A DNA stretch of 64,000 bases from Paludibacter sp. Its GTDB lineage: Bacteria; Bacteroidota; Bacteroidia; Bacteroidales; Paludibacteraceae. The stretch covers positions 62,001 to 126,000 of the forward strand of contig JAQTTH010000004.1 in assembly GCA_028710895.1 (NCBI GenBank). The letters run 5' to 3'. Of the stretch, positions 15,829-52,381 are shown piece by piece. Within the stretch, counting starts at the first letter, position 1, and the number at the start of each line of letters is the position of its first letter. The notes under the pieces were generated by a model. The model made no database searches, had not been told where the DNA came from, and was given only the letters and a program-made list of their open reading frames with translations. The position numbers were made by a program, and so were the translations under genes.

Positions 15829-16830
15829 ATGGATTTACTCGAAAAAATTATGGCTCGTGCCAAGGCAAACCTGCAACGCATTGTTTTGCCCGAAGGAACT
15901 GAAATTCGCACATTGAAGGCTGCAGATATTATTCTGAAAGAAAAAGCTGCCAAACTTATTTTGATTGGAAATGAGGCTGAAATTAAAAAACTTGCTTCGG
16001 AAAATAACCTTACAAACATTGCTGAAGCAACAATTCTCGATCCGGAAACCGATTCGAAAATGGCTGAATATACCAATTTGCTTTTCGAATTGCGCAAAAG
16101 TAAGGGAATGACAATTGAAGAAGCAACAAAACTGGCAAAAAATCCATTGTATTTAGGTTGTTTGTTGATTAAAAACGGAGATGCCGATGGTGAATTAGCC
16201 GGAGCTCAAAATACAACCGGAAACGTACTTCGTCCGGCTTTCCAAATTGTGAAAACATTACCCGGAATTAATGTTGTTTCAGGTGCTATTCTGATGTTTA
16301 CGCCTGCTACTCAATATGGCGAAAACGGGTTGTTGGTTTTTGCCGACTGTGCCGTGAATCCAAATCCAACGGCAGCCGAATTGGCTCAAATTGCTGTTTG
16401 TACTGCTGATACCGCTCGCGTTATTTGTGGTTATGAACCTCGTGTGGCTATGTTAAGCTTTTCCTCGAAAGGAAGTGCAAAACATGAATTGGTTGATAAA
16501 GTGGTTGAAGCTACCCGTTTGGCAAAAGAAATGGCTCCTGAATTGATGATTGACGGCGAATTGCAGGCAGACGCTGCGTTGGTTCCGGAAATTGGTCAGA
16601 GCAAAGCTCCGGGAAGCAAAATTGCCGGACATGCAAATGTATTGGTTTTCCCCGATTTACAGGCCGGAAACATTGGTTACAAAATGGTGGAGCGCTTCTC
16701 AGGGGCTCAGGCCGTTGGTCCGATTTTACAGGGAATGGCTGCGCCAATCAACGACCTTTCGCGTGGTTGCTCGGTAGATGATATTGTGCGTATGATTACG
16801 ATTACAGCCAATCAGGCAATGAAAAATTAA
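15829..16830 (+). CDS. pta: Phosphate acetyltransferase
   Basis: Short-form phosphotransacetylase of 333 residues, interconverting acetyl-CoA and acetyl phosphate in the cytosol. Family motifs: [17 protein letters not shown] near the N-terminus, [28 protein letters not shown] and [14 protein letters not shown], followed by [17 protein letters not shown]. There is no N-terminal regulatory domain. The open frame extends upstream to 15733, but that region contains the promoter, so the ATG at 15829 is chosen. Phosphate butyryltransferases are related, but the DGELQADAA signature and ackA downstream favour acetate. First gene of pta-HAD-ackA. Confidence 0.93.
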
Positions 16831-16926
16831 TTGATAATTGAAAATGCATAATTCATAATGGAATCATGCATTTTGATTTTCAATTATGCATTTTGAATTA
16901 TAAATTATGCATTAAAAAGAAATATT
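16831..16926. repeat. AT-rich imperfect palindrome between pta and the dehydrogenase gene
   Basis: A 96-bp spacer built from repeated ATGCATAATT, ATGCATTTTG and TTGATAATTGA words in both orientations, able to form a long imperfect hairpin. Similar AT-rich intergenic elements are scattered in Bacteroidota genomes; here it separates two genes of one apparent operon. Function unknown. Confidence 0.55.
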
Positions 16927-25558: not shown

Positions 25559-25835
25559 TCTGACGAAACCTCTTTGTAAATTTACATAACTAAGTTGGTC
25601 TCTGACAAGTCAAGTTGTAAAATTCCTATAACAAGTTGCTTTCTGACTAACCAAGTTGCAATATTTCTATAACAAGTTAGCTTCTGACAAAGTCAAGTTA
25701 CAATATTCCTATAACAAGTTGCCTCCTGACTCAATCGAGTTGTGAAATTACTCAGTCATGTTGGCTTCTGACAAAGTCAAGTAGTAAAATTACTTAGCCA
25801 AGTAGGTCTCTGACTCAACCCGGAAGGTTTCTGAC
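25559..25835. repeat. Degenerate 41-42 bp tandem repeat array
   Basis: About six and a half units, each starting TCTGAC and containing CAAGTTG twice, around a core like AAAATTCCTATAACAAGTT. First units begin at 25559, 25601, 25642 and 25683 (42, 41 and 41 bp apart); later units are more divergent and end with two short TCTGAC units (25810-25835). All frames have stops, so it is not coding. No Cas genes, and units lack distinct spacers, so it is not CRISPR. Confidence 0.85.
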
Positions 25836-25945
25836 AACTTAGGGTGCGAAAAATACATTCATTGCTCAACTGCTGACAGGGTTTTCAACCGCTGTCGGAG
25901 TTGTATGTATTGATATTTCTTCTCTGGAAACGACTAGGAACAACA

Positions 25946-25975
25946 AGCGCAACTCTTTTTGAATTGCGCTTGTTT
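25946..25975. repeat. Hairpin in non-coding island
   Basis: ACAAGCGCAA and TTGCGCTTGT form a 10-bp stem with a loop of about 10 nt. No T-run of terminator type follows directly. Confidence 0.6.
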
Positions 25976-26035
25976 CCGGGAAAGTAGTGATAGTGGATAA
26001 AGAATATTAATCCGAAGTGCTTGTAAGTAAATTAT

Positions 26036-48216: not shown

Positions 48217-49437
48217 TTAGTTGTTAATCATGGCATTTACAATTTCATAATGACTGTTGTATAAATTTTGTCTGTACGGACATTGATACATTGGATTATA
48301 GCTTGCAAGTTTGGCTTTAGCATCATTTGGTTTGCCCTCTCCCAACAAAACAAAAGCTTCGTATATTTTCAATATATTATAATTGCGATATAGATGTATG
48401 TTCTGTTGAGGATTACCCTGTGACAAATTTAAACATTCTATCGTCAGTTTTAAAATATAATGGTCTTTTTTATAAAAGATAATATGGCTCAAAATTAAGG
48501 CTATATAAGATCGATCACCCAAATCAATATCTTTTATTAAAAATGGGATTTCCTCCAATAAGCTATCTTTAATCTCTATATTATCGTTAAAATATACCAT
48601 TAGTATAGCTAATCTACGCAACTTAGGCATAAAGTGAACCGGCTCATTTTCACGAAAATGAATCAGGAAATCAAAATGCTCCGATTTATATATTCCATTT
48701 TGAATATCACGAACACACATCAAACAATGGTAAAAAAGCTGAGCTTCCAAATTTGTTTTGTATTGGTGATAAAGCTCCATCATCTCGCCATAATAGCCAT
48801 TCAGATTATCTTCATCAACAAAACGTTCGATATACCATTCTTGTGCCACTACACTTCTTGCATAATACTTAACAAGCTCTCTTATTTTAGGTGACTCACG
48901 TAAAATTAAGCCTAAATCTTGTGCAAAATAGAACTGTGGAGGTTCATAATTAATATTTTCTAAGAAGAAGGGTAACTCAAATAATTTTGATAATGTCTCT
49001 ACATCGTCTTTTTGTACTGCAACCTTTACCAACGTCAATACAATTTCGTATTTGTGAGAGGATGCGGAAAACTCTGAAAGAATATTTTTAAACTCTTCAA
49101 AATTAGAATAACCATTTAACCGCAACGTAGTCAGAATCTCTAAATGCTTGAAACTAGCTATCTGATTTTCTTTCTCCATAAATTCATTCCACCCACCGTA
49201 TCCTATTGTTTTGCATATCGAATCAAGGGTAAACAGCGAAGGATTAGTTGCATCAGGATATAGGAAAAGTCGTTTCAGGGTGCTTATACTGACAGAATTG
49301 TGTGTTGTAGAAAGAATTAGTTGAGCAAGTTTGGAGATATTCTTATTGATTTTAAGCGAATATGGCAATGCATCCTGAACAACCGTTCTGAATCGTTCCA
49401 TAACCTTAGCATCTTGTATAAAAACTCCTTTTGGCAT
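48217..49437 (-). CDS. Hypothetical protein, possible regulator
   Basis: A 406-residue protein when begun at the ATG at 49437 (MPKGVFIQDAKVMERFRTVV). The first 90 residues look like a helical, HTH-type region (KINKNISKLAQLILSTTHNS, SISTLKRLFLYPD...SLFTLDSICKTIGYGGWNEF), resembling uncharacterised Bacteroidota regulators; the remaining 300 residues are alpha-helical, like TPR/ARM-type sensing repeats. The open frame continues upstream to 49647 and further through a 21-bp repeat array without stops, but those residues are hydrophobic, repetitive and unlike the protein body, so the later ATG is preferred. Function not established. Confidence 0.65.
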   Translation of the reverse strand: MPKGVFIQDAKVMERFRTVVQDALPYSLKINKNISKLAQLILSTTHNSVSISTLKRLFLYPDATNPSLFTLDSICKTIGYGGWNEFMEKENQIASFKHLEILTTLRLNGYSNFEEFKNILSEFSASSHKYEIVLTLVKVAVQKDDVETLSKLFELPFFLENINYEPPQFYFAQDLGLILRESPKIRELVKYYARSVVAQEWYIERFVDEDNLNGYYGEMMELYHQYKTNLEAQLFYHCLMCVRDIQNGIYKSEHFDFLIHFRENEPVHFMPKLRRLAILMVYFNDNIEIKDSLLEEIPFLIKDIDLGDRSYIALILSHIIFYKKDHYILKLTIECLNLSQGNPQQNIHLYRNYNILKIYEAFVLLGEGKPNDAKAKLASYNPMYQCPYRQNLYNSHYEIVNAMINN

Positions 49438-49573
49438 AATTCCTAAATTATTGTTGACATTCCTTTGTTTTATTTGAATTTGACAACGATATCCAAAGCA
49501 AAACAGTGTTACAAATATAAATAATAAATTCGTTTTAATCCGGTAGCATTCAAAAAACGGCAATAATACGAAA

Positions 49574-49867
49574 TCTACAGGAAAATGAACAAAGTCAATA
49601 GGAAAAATTTCTTTTACTACAAGAAAAGAAATAAGACCAACAGACATAGTAACAAAACCTGTAGGAAAAGAAACAAAAGCAGTTGGAAAAATTACTAACC
49701 TTATAGGAATTGGAACAAAACCAACAGGAATAATTCTTTTTCTTATAAGAAAAGAAACAAAAGCTATAGGAAAATAGGTTTTTCTTACAAGAAAAGAAAC
49801 AAAACTTATAAGAAAAATGACAAAACCAATTGGAAAAGTTATTTTTCCAATTGAAATCGGAAATGAA
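49574..49867. repeat. Indel-free 21-bp tandem repeat array, 14 units
   Basis: Fourteen consecutive 21-bp units starting at 49574, 49595, 49616 and so on to 49847, with no insertion or deletion. Core per unit is an AGGAAAA- or ATAAGAAAA-like block followed by an ACAAAA- or TTTTT-like end, for example CCTGTAGGAAAAGAAACAAA plus one A. Six-bp palindromes (CTTATAAG, CCAATTGG) recur at the unit start. A degenerate unit may precede it (49553-49573). The unit equals 7 codons or two helical turns. Confidence 0.9.
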
Positions 49868-50084
49868 GCAACTAAAAAGAATTGATTAGCTCTATTTTTT
49901 AGCCATTTCTCCTTAAAATTGATCGATTTTCAATGATTTTTAATTTGCTTTTCACTGAAAATTTATCAGTGTTATATTGTTTATTGTCAGATATATAAAA
50001 TAATTTATTTATTATTTGTAGGGCTAATATAGGGTGCTCCATTTTAATTATTTTTACATGTAGTGTTGATATTGGGGCTAAAAA

Positions 50085-50116
50085 TTTGTTGTATCAAAAA
50101 TAGCGACGTTACTTTG
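50085..50116 (+). promoter_or_regulatory. Promoter-like pair before the GH3 gene
   Basis: TTTG (50085-50088), a 20-bp spacer and TTACTTTG (50109-50116, one mismatch from TAnnTTTG), 39 bp before the ATG of the beta-glucosidase gene. Probable start of PUL transcription. Confidence 0.5.
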
Positions 50117-50155
50117 TGTCGTTAATTTTAAGGTACAAAAACAAATCACATTGTC

Positions 50156-52381
50156 ATGACAAAAAAATTAGTAGTTACAATTCTGGCTGCAGCACTATTC
50201 TCGGCCTGCAATCACTCCACGCAAACTTCCGAAGAAAAAAGAATAGACGAAAAAGTCGATTCAGTAATGAGATTAATGACCATTGACGAGAAAATCGGTC
50301 AAATGGTATTATACACAAGCGATTGGGACGTAACAGGTCCATCCCTCAAAAAAGGATATATAGACGAAATACGCAAAGGAAACTGCGGAAATATATTCAA
50401 TGCACATACGGCAGCGTACACACGCAAACTTCAAAAAATTGCTGTCGAAGAATCAAGATTAGGTATCCCGTTGTTGTTTGGTTATGATGTTATTCACGGG
50501 CACAAAACGATTTTCCCAATTTCGTTGGGAGAATCGGCCTCGTGGGATTTAGCTGCTATTGAAAAATCAGCCCGCGTTTCAGCAACTGAAGCTGCGGCTT
50601 CGGGCATAAACTGGACATTTGCACCTATGTGCGATATTTCCGTTGAACCACGTTGGGGACGAGTTTCTGAAGGAGCCGGCGAAGATCCATATCTGGGATC
50701 AAAAATAGCCGCTGCACGTGTTCATGGTTTTCAGGGCGATAATTTAGGTGACACACTCACTATTTTAGCTTGTGTAAAACACTTTGCTGCTTACGGAGCA
50801 CCCACAGCCGGCCGCGATTACAATACAGTGGATATGTCGGAACGTGTTTTTCTGGATACGTATCTACCTCCTTACAAAGCTGCAATCGATGCCGGTGCCA
50901 TGAGTGTTATGTCGTCGTTCAACGAATACGATGGTGTACCTGCCACCGGAAGTCATTACTTACTTACCGATATTTTACGCAAGAAACTCGGATTTAAAGG
51001 ATTTGTAGTGACAGATTATACATCTATCAACGAAATGGTGAACCACGGTGTGGTTGCTAACGAAAAAGAAGCAGGAATTATGGCAGCGAAAGCTGGTGTT
51101 GATATGGATATGCAGGGCGAAGTATATTTCAAATACATGAAAAAAGCACTTGAAGATGGACTTATTCCGATGAAAGTTGTAAACGATGCCGTAAATCGAA
51201 TTTTGCACGTGAAATTTATGCTTGGCTTGTTTAAAGACCCTTACCTCTATTGCAACGAAGCCCGCGAAAAACGAGAAGTCTATTCCCCTGCTCACTTAGA
51301 TGCATCGTACGATGTGGCTAAAAAATCAATGGTTTTGTTGAAAAATGCGAATCATGTATTACCATTGAAGAAAGGGGAAAAAATTGCAGTCATTGGCGAA
51401 TTGGCAACTTCTACCCGCGACTTATTGGGATCCTGGAAAGCTGCCGGCGACTGGAACTTTATGAAATCAATTCTGGACGAAATAAAAACCTATAACGGCG
51501 ATGCAAATGTAATTTATGCCGAAGGTTGCAAGAAAGAAGGTGAAGATCGCGGTGGATTTCCTGCAGCTTTGGCTGCTGCACGAAAAGCTGATAAAATCGT
51601 TATGGTAATTGGCGAAAGTTGCGAATGGAGTGGTGAAGCTTCGAGCCGAACGAATATAAACGTTCCGGGCGTTCAGACCGAATTGCTCGAAAAACTCAAA
51701 GCCTTGAATAAACCAATTGTGGTGGTATTGATGAATGGTCGTCCGTTGGTATTGACAAAAGAAAACGAACTGGCTGATGCTATGCTCGAAGCGTGGTTCC
51801 CGGGCACCATGGGTGGAAAGGCCATTACGCATGTACTTTTCGGAGAATATAATCCGTCAGGAAAATTGACAATGACGTTCCCCAGAGCATTGGGACAAGT
51901 ACCGATTTTCTATTATGAAAAGAATACCGGTCGCCCTATTTATCTCGCAAATCCGAAATACAAATCAAGATATATTGACTGTCCGAACGACCCCTTGTTC
52001 CCATTCGGTTACGGGTTGAGTTATACAACATTTGCTTATTCCGACATTAAACTTTCAACAACTGAACTCACAGCCGAGGGTGAATTGAAAGCATCGGTAA
52101 ACGTAACAAATACCGGTAATGTAGCCGGCGAAGAAGTGGTTCAATGCTACGTTCGCGATTTAGTAGGAAGCGTTACCCGTCCGGTAAAAGAATTGAAGGG
52201 TTTTGAAAAAGTAGCATTGAAAGTGGGCGAAAGCAAAGTGGTGACGTTTACAATTAAACCTGCTATGCTGGCTTTCCACCGGGCCGATATGACTTACGGA
52301 ACTGAACCGGGAGATTTCAAACTGTTTATTGGAGGAAATTCGCGGGACGTGAAAGAAGTTGGGTTTAAATTGAAGGAGTAA
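50156..52381 (+). CDS. bglX: GH3 beta-glucosidase (BglX-like) lipoprotein
   Basis: GH3-family beta-glucosidase of 741 residues. The signal peptide ends in a lipobox (LFSAC, Cys18), so the enzyme is probably a periplasmic-facing lipoprotein. The N-terminal TIM barrel (about 30-380) contains the Asp nucleophile region FVVTDYTSINE (Asp287) and GWNWTFAPMCD-like INWTFAPMCDIS. The alpha/beta sandwich (about 390-630) has the GESCEWSGEASSRTNINVPG and PSGKLTMTFPR motifs. A fibronectin III-like end (about 660-740) follows. It should release glucose from beta-linked oligosaccharides. As first gene of the PUL it fits hydrolysis of sophorose-type products, by analogy with characterised Bacteroides GH3 enzymes in beta-1,2-glucan loci. 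Specificity is inferred. Confidence 0.92.
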   Translation: MTKKLVVTILAAALFSACNHSTQTSEEKRIDEKVDSVMRLMTIDEKIGQMVLYTSDWDVTGPSLKKGYIDEIRKGNCGNIFNAHTAAYTRKLQKIAVEESRLGIPLLFGYDVIHGHKTIFPISLGESASWDLAAIEKSARVSATEAAASGINWTFAPMCDISVEPRWGRVSEGAGEDPYLGSKIAAARVHGFQGDNLGDTLTILACVKHFAAYGAPTAGRDYNTVDMSERVFLDTYLPPYKAAIDAGAMSVMSSFNEYDGVPATGSHYLLTDILRKKLGFKGFVVTDYTSINEMVNHGVVANEKEAGIMAAKAGVDMDMQGEVYFKYMKKALEDGLIPMKVVNDAVNRILHVKFMLGLFKDPYLYCNEAREKREVYSPAHLDASYDVAKKSMVLLKNANHVLPLKKGEKIAVIGELATSTRDLLGSWKAAGDWNFMKSILDEIKTYNGDANVIYAEGCKKEGEDRGGFPAALAAARKADKIVMVIGESCEWSGEASSRTNINVPGVQTELLEKLKALNKPIVVVLMNGRPLVLTKENELADAMLEAWFPGTMGGKAITHVLFGEYNPSGKLTMTFPRALGQVPIFYYEKNTGRPIYLANPKYKSRYIDCPNDPLFPFGYGLSYTTFAYSDIKLSTTELTAEGELKASVNVTNTGNVAGEEVVQCYVRDLVGSVTRPVKELKGFEKVALKVGESKVVTFTIKPAMLAFHRADMTYGTEPGDFKLFIGGNSRDVKEVGFKLKE

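Follow-up and report, generated by a model that had tools for sequence, protein, structure and literature searches.

A 21-bp tandem array between divergent genes of Paludibacter and its place among intergenic arrays spaced by two helical turns

The window, by which we mean the whole stretch of 64,000 nucleotides analyzed here, contains between two divergently oriented genes a tandem array whose units have diverged by substitution while their 21-bp spacing is intact. The question raised by this locus is what kind of element keeps its spacing and not its sequence, and whether it belongs to the genes beside it. The array and its neighbors are the following.

49574..49867, no strand assigned: tandem array, 14 units of 21 bp (equal to 7 of 42 bp), with weak similarity out to 49559–49872
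48217..49437, minus strand: divergent neighbor encoding a protein of about 406 amino acids without a Pfam match, its likelier start being the ATG at 49437
50156..52381, plus strand: divergent neighbor, glycoside hydrolase family 3 (GH3)

The array and the genes beside it

Read in register from 49574, the array consists of fourteen 21-bp units over 294 bp, as the preliminary description had stated. The autocorrelation, with matches summed over lags of 21 to 147, gave 820, compared with 496 ± 16 in 2,000 dinucleotide shuffles (maximum 561), which places the array 20 standard deviations above its null model. The top single lag was 42 bp, with 60% identity, while none of 500 shuffles had a lag above 47%. 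The unit's second half is either A-rich or carries a T-run at its end, and the 42-bp period is stronger than the 21-bp period because units ending in AAAAGAAACAAAA and units ending in T-runs partly alternate. The array had also been described as free of indels, and a profile walk over 49559–49872 found no phase jumps despite at least 81 substitutions among the seven 42-bp units. The small palindromes said to recur at the same place in each unit correspond to an 8-bp dyad that is in register at the unit start (for example CCAATTGG and CTTATAAG) but perfect in only 3 of the 14 units. At this phase 66% of the pairs are complementary, as compared to 9–34% at the other 20 phases. A contiguous conserved block of 10 bp per 21 bp was detected at p 0.04, and at p 0.003 when 31 arrays, not all independent of one another, were pooled by Fisher's method.

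A mechanical reading frame, 48217–49647, runs into the array. The ATG at 49437 is the likelier start of this gene, since the alignments of its two weak homologues begin only at residues 28 and 38 of the shorter form. With this start, the array falls in the gap of about 718 bp that separates the two divergent genes. The earlier GH3 assignment was confirmed; a glycoamylase-domain gene comes next. The protein of the 48217–49437 gene, the N-terminus of which may be regulator-like, has matches in 3 of 48 genomes of the genus, one being the protein itself and two being weak. No Rfam match at gathering score was obtained over the array, and the sole Rfam match in the window is a tRNA elsewhere; Rfam was likewise without a match over the arrays in 13 loci. 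A viral origin was rejected: the phage collection returned one weak match of 39 bases, to a Pseudoalteromonas phage (two records). Elsewhere in the window, at 16828–16914, AT-rich 7/21-bp repeats form two short blocks in partly inverted orientation.

Arrays of two-turn spacing in the genus and beyond

The window contains a second array.

25574..25818, no strand assigned: second array belonging to this class, with a period of 42 bp and slips of 1 bp
25611..26000, no strand assigned: dispersed element with the second array and hairpins, copied at G000:C33:288303-288738 with one extra 42-bp unit

The copies of this element lie 200 kb apart, and over 433 aligned columns they show 21 mismatches and one gap whose length is exactly 42 bp, besides gaps of 1 and 2 bp. 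A REP-like hairpin of the element (approximately 25866–25905) recurs by itself on contigs C3 and C5 of the window's own genome, as well as in other genomes of the genus; the element also contains a second hairpin.

We scanned 1,364,000 bases of Paludibacter, comprising 304 kb of the 4.9-Mb genome to which the window belongs, 560 kb of G016 and 500 kb of ten other genomes of the genus, for arrays of at least 2.8 copies and at least 60 bp that were not flagged as inside a gene. The flag is derived from simple ORF calls, and it was also set on two 21-bp stretches that are probably intergenic (L067 and one in L201). Sixteen of the 23 arrays without this flag have periods of 21, 41, 42, 63, 66 or 84 bp, and the other seven have periods of 7 (three arrays), 17, 24, 51 and 297 bp. 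The window array falls within the class so defined, namely a period of 21–22 or 41–42 bp, or a multiple, outside any long gene. Unit sequences look unrelated among most arrays of one genome (the window's own genome has one pair that is alike), and the arrays are found in divergent, tandem and convergent gaps. A sequence motif common to the arrays was sought and not found. The array belongs to a genus-wide set whose members have their spacing in common and are for the most part unrelated in sequence.

Such arrays are rare beyond the genus. None of three arrays not flagged as coding in 228 kb belongs to the class, two of these having 23 bp, and 400 kb of the family and order yielded no 21- or 42-bp array and one 63-bp repeat, which overlaps an ORF. 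The surroundings of 80 GH3 genes from diverse bacteria, 628 kb in all, contained one clear case besides a copy of the G014 locus described below: in Labilibaculum euxinus (Bacteroidales), a 21-bp array (L325 5848–6125) has the GH3 operon on one side and a minus-strand gene on the other. At another locus, an 8-bp array (L041 14974–15166) has its last part reverse-complemented and could fold as one long hairpin.

The preliminary description had suggested a search for the array in related genomes. At E < 1e-6, the window array matches 4 of 47 other genomes of the genus: G040 (2.8e-18), G036, G019 (three contigs) and G023 (two contigs). A fifth relative, in G020, was found by a pattern search. A 17-mer of the array, with one mismatch allowed, occurs at 31 places in 24 of 100 genomes, as compared to 23 places for the reversed control, and one of the 31 led to the G020 array; the exact 36-base pattern of two array units had no match in the genome contig collection. 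The relatives in all five genomes retain 21 or 42 bp, while their unit number ranges between roughly 8, for an array at the end of a contig, and roughly 20. Their neighbors are an ADP-ribosylglycohydrolase with GHL10, a response regulator with OmpA, a carbon-nitrogen hydrolase, and DUF3244. The neighboring genes differ, and therefore the sequence family of the array is not tied to one gene. In the locus of one relative, Rfam reports a group II intron match (L155 62–138).

Orthologous sites were compared for both arrays of the window. Besides the window's own gene, 1 of 26 GH3 orthologues (L221–L246), in G014, has an upstream array, three of the 26 having less than 320 bp upstream on their contigs. 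The G014 array (L241 532–1119, also L292) comprises 28 units of 21 bp, differs in sequence from the window array and shows a higher-order repeat of 210 bp (ten units). No array was found at the 16 orthologues of the YitT-like gene adjoining the second array, one of which (L263) has about 140 bp downstream on its contig. The arrays at the two sites tested, GH3 and YitT-like, are lineage-specific. A role of the window array as a conserved cis-element of the GH3 gene, or of the divergent neighbor with its few matches in the genus, was rejected on these counts. The array is probably not a dedicated control element of either gene, and any effect on transcription between the two would be a by-product.

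Thirty loci with a DUF3244 gene were compared. In 11 of them, from 10 genomes, the gap that follows the gene holds an array with a period of 21, 41, 42 or 63 bp. Inspection by eye sorts these arrays into four kinds: an AAAGTTT anchor is common to five, a CCAATTGG-like core to four, and the units of the remaining two (in the window's own genome and in G016) resemble neither the other groups nor each other. Behind DUF3244, the period of the array is thus kept while the unit sequence changes. At 12 of 19 such loci inspected by eye (L170, L171, L173, L174, L176–L180, L182, L191 and L198), we also observed an inverted repeat at a distance of 6–40 nt past the stop codon of DUF3244, in several cases immediately preceding the array. 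It is of the type AAGCGGTACAGTC, 53 to 96 nt, GACTGTACCGCTT, and its arms covary with compensatory changes (GCGC/GCGC, GTGC/GCAC). Six of these loci were scanned with Rfam and gave no match at gathering score over the inverted repeat, which is a candidate for a new structured RNA or DNA element.

Changes within arrays are mostly substitutions. In 32 arrays (the 31 analyzed for folding below, and L152), at least 1,415 substitutions were counted versus 17 phase jumps, of which 7 were judged by eye to be internal and 10 to be at an edge. This deficit of slips is biased, since in a simulation the scan missed diverged arrays that contained slips, and it is reliable for the less diverged arrays only. 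The rarity of internal slips suggests selection on spacing, and in part reflects ascertainment. Change in copy number by whole units was seen in the paralogous second array (42 bp), and unit counts also differ among the relatives of the window array.

Folding, bending and coding capacity

Complementary segments were identified within the window array.

49827..49853, no strand assigned: perfect hairpin or dyad, CAATTGGAAAA separated by 5 nt from TTTTCCAATTG, from an inverted-repeat search
49680..49853, no strand assigned: further complementary arms, 49680–49696 with 49837–49853 (88%) and 49737–49749 with 49805–49817 (100%)

The predicted folding of the array is stronger than expected on both strands, with z = −6.0 and −4.2 against 40 tandem-preserving permutations per strand and z = −6.7 and −7.0 against dinucleotide shuffles. 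The comparison was extended to 31 hand-chosen arrays, 17 from the genus samples and 14 from targeted loci, with L065, L067, L201 and L219 left out. Against tandem-preserving permutations, 17 of the 31 fold with z < −2 on the plus strand and 14, among them the second window array, do not. Folding better than permuted was observed for 15 of 22 arrays of 41/42 bp versus 2 of 9 arrays of 21/22 bp (Mann-Whitney p 0.003). The two strands fold alike (mean z −2.4 and −2.7), which argues against a constraint specific to RNA.

Tested against shuffled columns in 30 arrays (L241 left out), a simple consensus dyad was significantly better at p < 0.05 in 7, including the window array (p 0.013), and not in the other 23. 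In the best dyads, 45 of the 81 cells changed on both sides form Watson-Crick pairs, 10 form G-T pairs and 26 are unpaired, while single changes broke the pair in 276 cells and gave G-T in 69. Dyad symmetry is thus favored in the arrays, and it is neither strict nor strand-specific.

We consider, with about even confidence, that the window array is a hairpin-forming intergenic minisatellite with a unit of two helical turns (21 bp), doubled to four (42 bp). The doubling would have occurred where alternate units became mutually complementary. Such an array may grow and shrink when single strands prone to hairpins misalign by whole units as the DNA is replicated or repaired. Its units would be homogenized within the array and its arms perfected by hairpin-templated copying, while loss of the two-turn spacing would be disfavored. 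That imperfect palindromes can be corrected with a hairpin as template is known from other work; the action of this process on these arrays is our inference. The minisatellite reading is supported by the period statistics, the spacing of the class, the folding, the one-unit 42-bp gap between the paralogues, the lineage specificity and the mixed gene contexts. The arrays without strong folding, the non-significant dyads and the pair-breaking changes argue against it, as do the DUF3244 arrays, which recur in more genomes than free turnover predicts. Together with the rare slips, this recurrence leaves room for a phased multi-site array, in which a DNA-binding or architectural protein would contact a core of about 10 bp every two turns on one face, cooperatively, so that spacing is selected and the rest is free. 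The spacing in whole turns, the conserved 10-bp block, the in-register 8-bp dyad, the rarity of internal slips and the DUF3244 arrays with kept period and changed sequence are all consistent with such binding. However, the cores differ among most arrays of one genome, so that one sequence-specific protein could hardly serve them all, and the GH3 and YitT-like orthologues mostly lack arrays; we regard a binding array as rather unlikely. It is improbable that the array acts as RNA, that is, as a transcribed element whose serial hairpins end, stabilize or insulate transcripts. The strong predicted folding and the position of several arrays between convergent genes would suit this function, but the similar folding of both strands, the occurrence of arrays in all three types of gap and the lack of Rfam matches over the window array and the arrays in 13 loci argue against it. 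A mobile MITE with an internal minisatellite is still less probable: the second window array does sit in an element with another copy 200 kb away, but the array at 49574 (E up to 0.001) and its right flank (E up to 0.01) match only themselves in their own genome, and no terminal inverted repeats were seen around this array.

The preliminary description had further proposed that repeated A-tracts bend the DNA, and that selection acts on spacing or on translated heptads. A curvature prediction by a wedge model gave a ratio of contour to end-to-end distance of 1.17 for the window array compared with 1.09 ± 0.03 (p 0.02) in 60 shuffles, in which the tandem order is lost, and 3.35 for a phased A-tract control. 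Curvature is hence slightly raised, but far below that of phased A-tracts. Among five sequence relatives, L150, the closest, and L157 are more curved (1.37 and 1.50), while L151, L155 and L170 are not above shuffles, and p was 0.02 or less in 8 of 29 arrays. Any helix-phased repeat may bend more than a shuffle, and the locus is not conserved; intrinsically bent DNA acting on the divergent promoters is as improbable an explanation as the RNA element. As regards the proposed selection, a constraint on spacing by helical turns fits the data, since the relatives keep 21 or 42 bp as unit number varies and the class is concentrated at 21–22 and 41–42 bp. Translated heptads, on the other hand, are unsupported for the class, because arrays of 41 and 22 bp exist, variation in the window array does not follow codon position, and the 28-unit G014 array has at least four stops in each frame. 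One frame of the window array lacks stops; it is on the minus strand, which is open from 48217 past the array (a 570-aa frame), and an open frame was present in 18 of 24 arrays of 21/42 bp, as compared to 12.8 expected. Heptads are unlikely to explain the class, the excess of open frames leaving room for a minor coding contribution, and it is highly improbable that the window array is a coding repeat of seven-residue units, whether living or decayed.

More tentatively, and less likely than not, Paludibacter, and more rarely other Bacteroidales, may carry throughout their genomes intergenic arrays in which conservation is limited to the two- or four-turn spacing and the unit sequence turns over, even at a single orthologous position such as the one behind DUF3244 genes; they would then form a DNA element defined by its geometry and not by its sequence.

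Comparison with described repeats

Bacterial minisatellites are usually described per sequence family, whereas here the pitch is a trait common to unrelated sequences. The common pitch allows tests of whether two helical turns are measured in these bacteria, be it by a nucleoid protein or in the course of replication or repair, and of whether direct repeats of 21 bp give rise to the hairpin arrays of 42 bp. Among the literature matches listed, with most subscription journals outside the scope, none has a title that points to arrays of 21/42 bp in Paludibacter or Bacteroidales.

Iterons and other phased binding-site arrays are direct repeats spaced about two turns apart, on one face of the DNA; iterons share their sequence and bind one initiator. 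In contrast, most of the arrays described here have no common sequence.

Two sets of the intergenic TAACTGA heptamer direct repeats are reported for Paludibacter propionicigenes (PMC4679880). Those repeats have one fixed 7-nt motif, and the 7-bp arrays found here stand apart from the 21/42-bp class. In Porphyromonas gingivalis W83, tandem direct repeats of 41, 23 and 22 nt had been noted earlier, as reported in PMC4596501, where their locations are not given. The period classes of 22 and 41 recur in some arrays here, which is a likeness in period.

The same paper (PMC4596501) describes BrickBuilt of P. gingivalis, which consists of 23-nt intergenic repeats with predicted long stem-loops and a strain-variable repeat number, and forms one sequence family with a leader and a tail with inverted ends, present in 19 copies in one strain. 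As described there, BrickBuilt and the window array share their occurrence in Bacteroidales, the intergenic location, spacer-free direct repeats of about two helical turns and predicted stem-loops. The unit differs, being 23 nt in BrickBuilt and 21 bp with a higher period of 42 in the window array. Instead of inverted ends, the only complementary pairs that frame the window array within 49380–50160 are AT-rich, 14–17 nt long, 477–546 nt apart and 82–93% complementary. Unlike the dispersed BrickBuilt, the window array and its right flank are single-copy in G000 at the thresholds used, while the second array has a second copy, and most arrays of this genome have a sequence of their own, unlike the one family of BrickBuilt. 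BrickBuilt is thus the closest described case, and by unit length, flanks and dispersal the window array is not a member of it.
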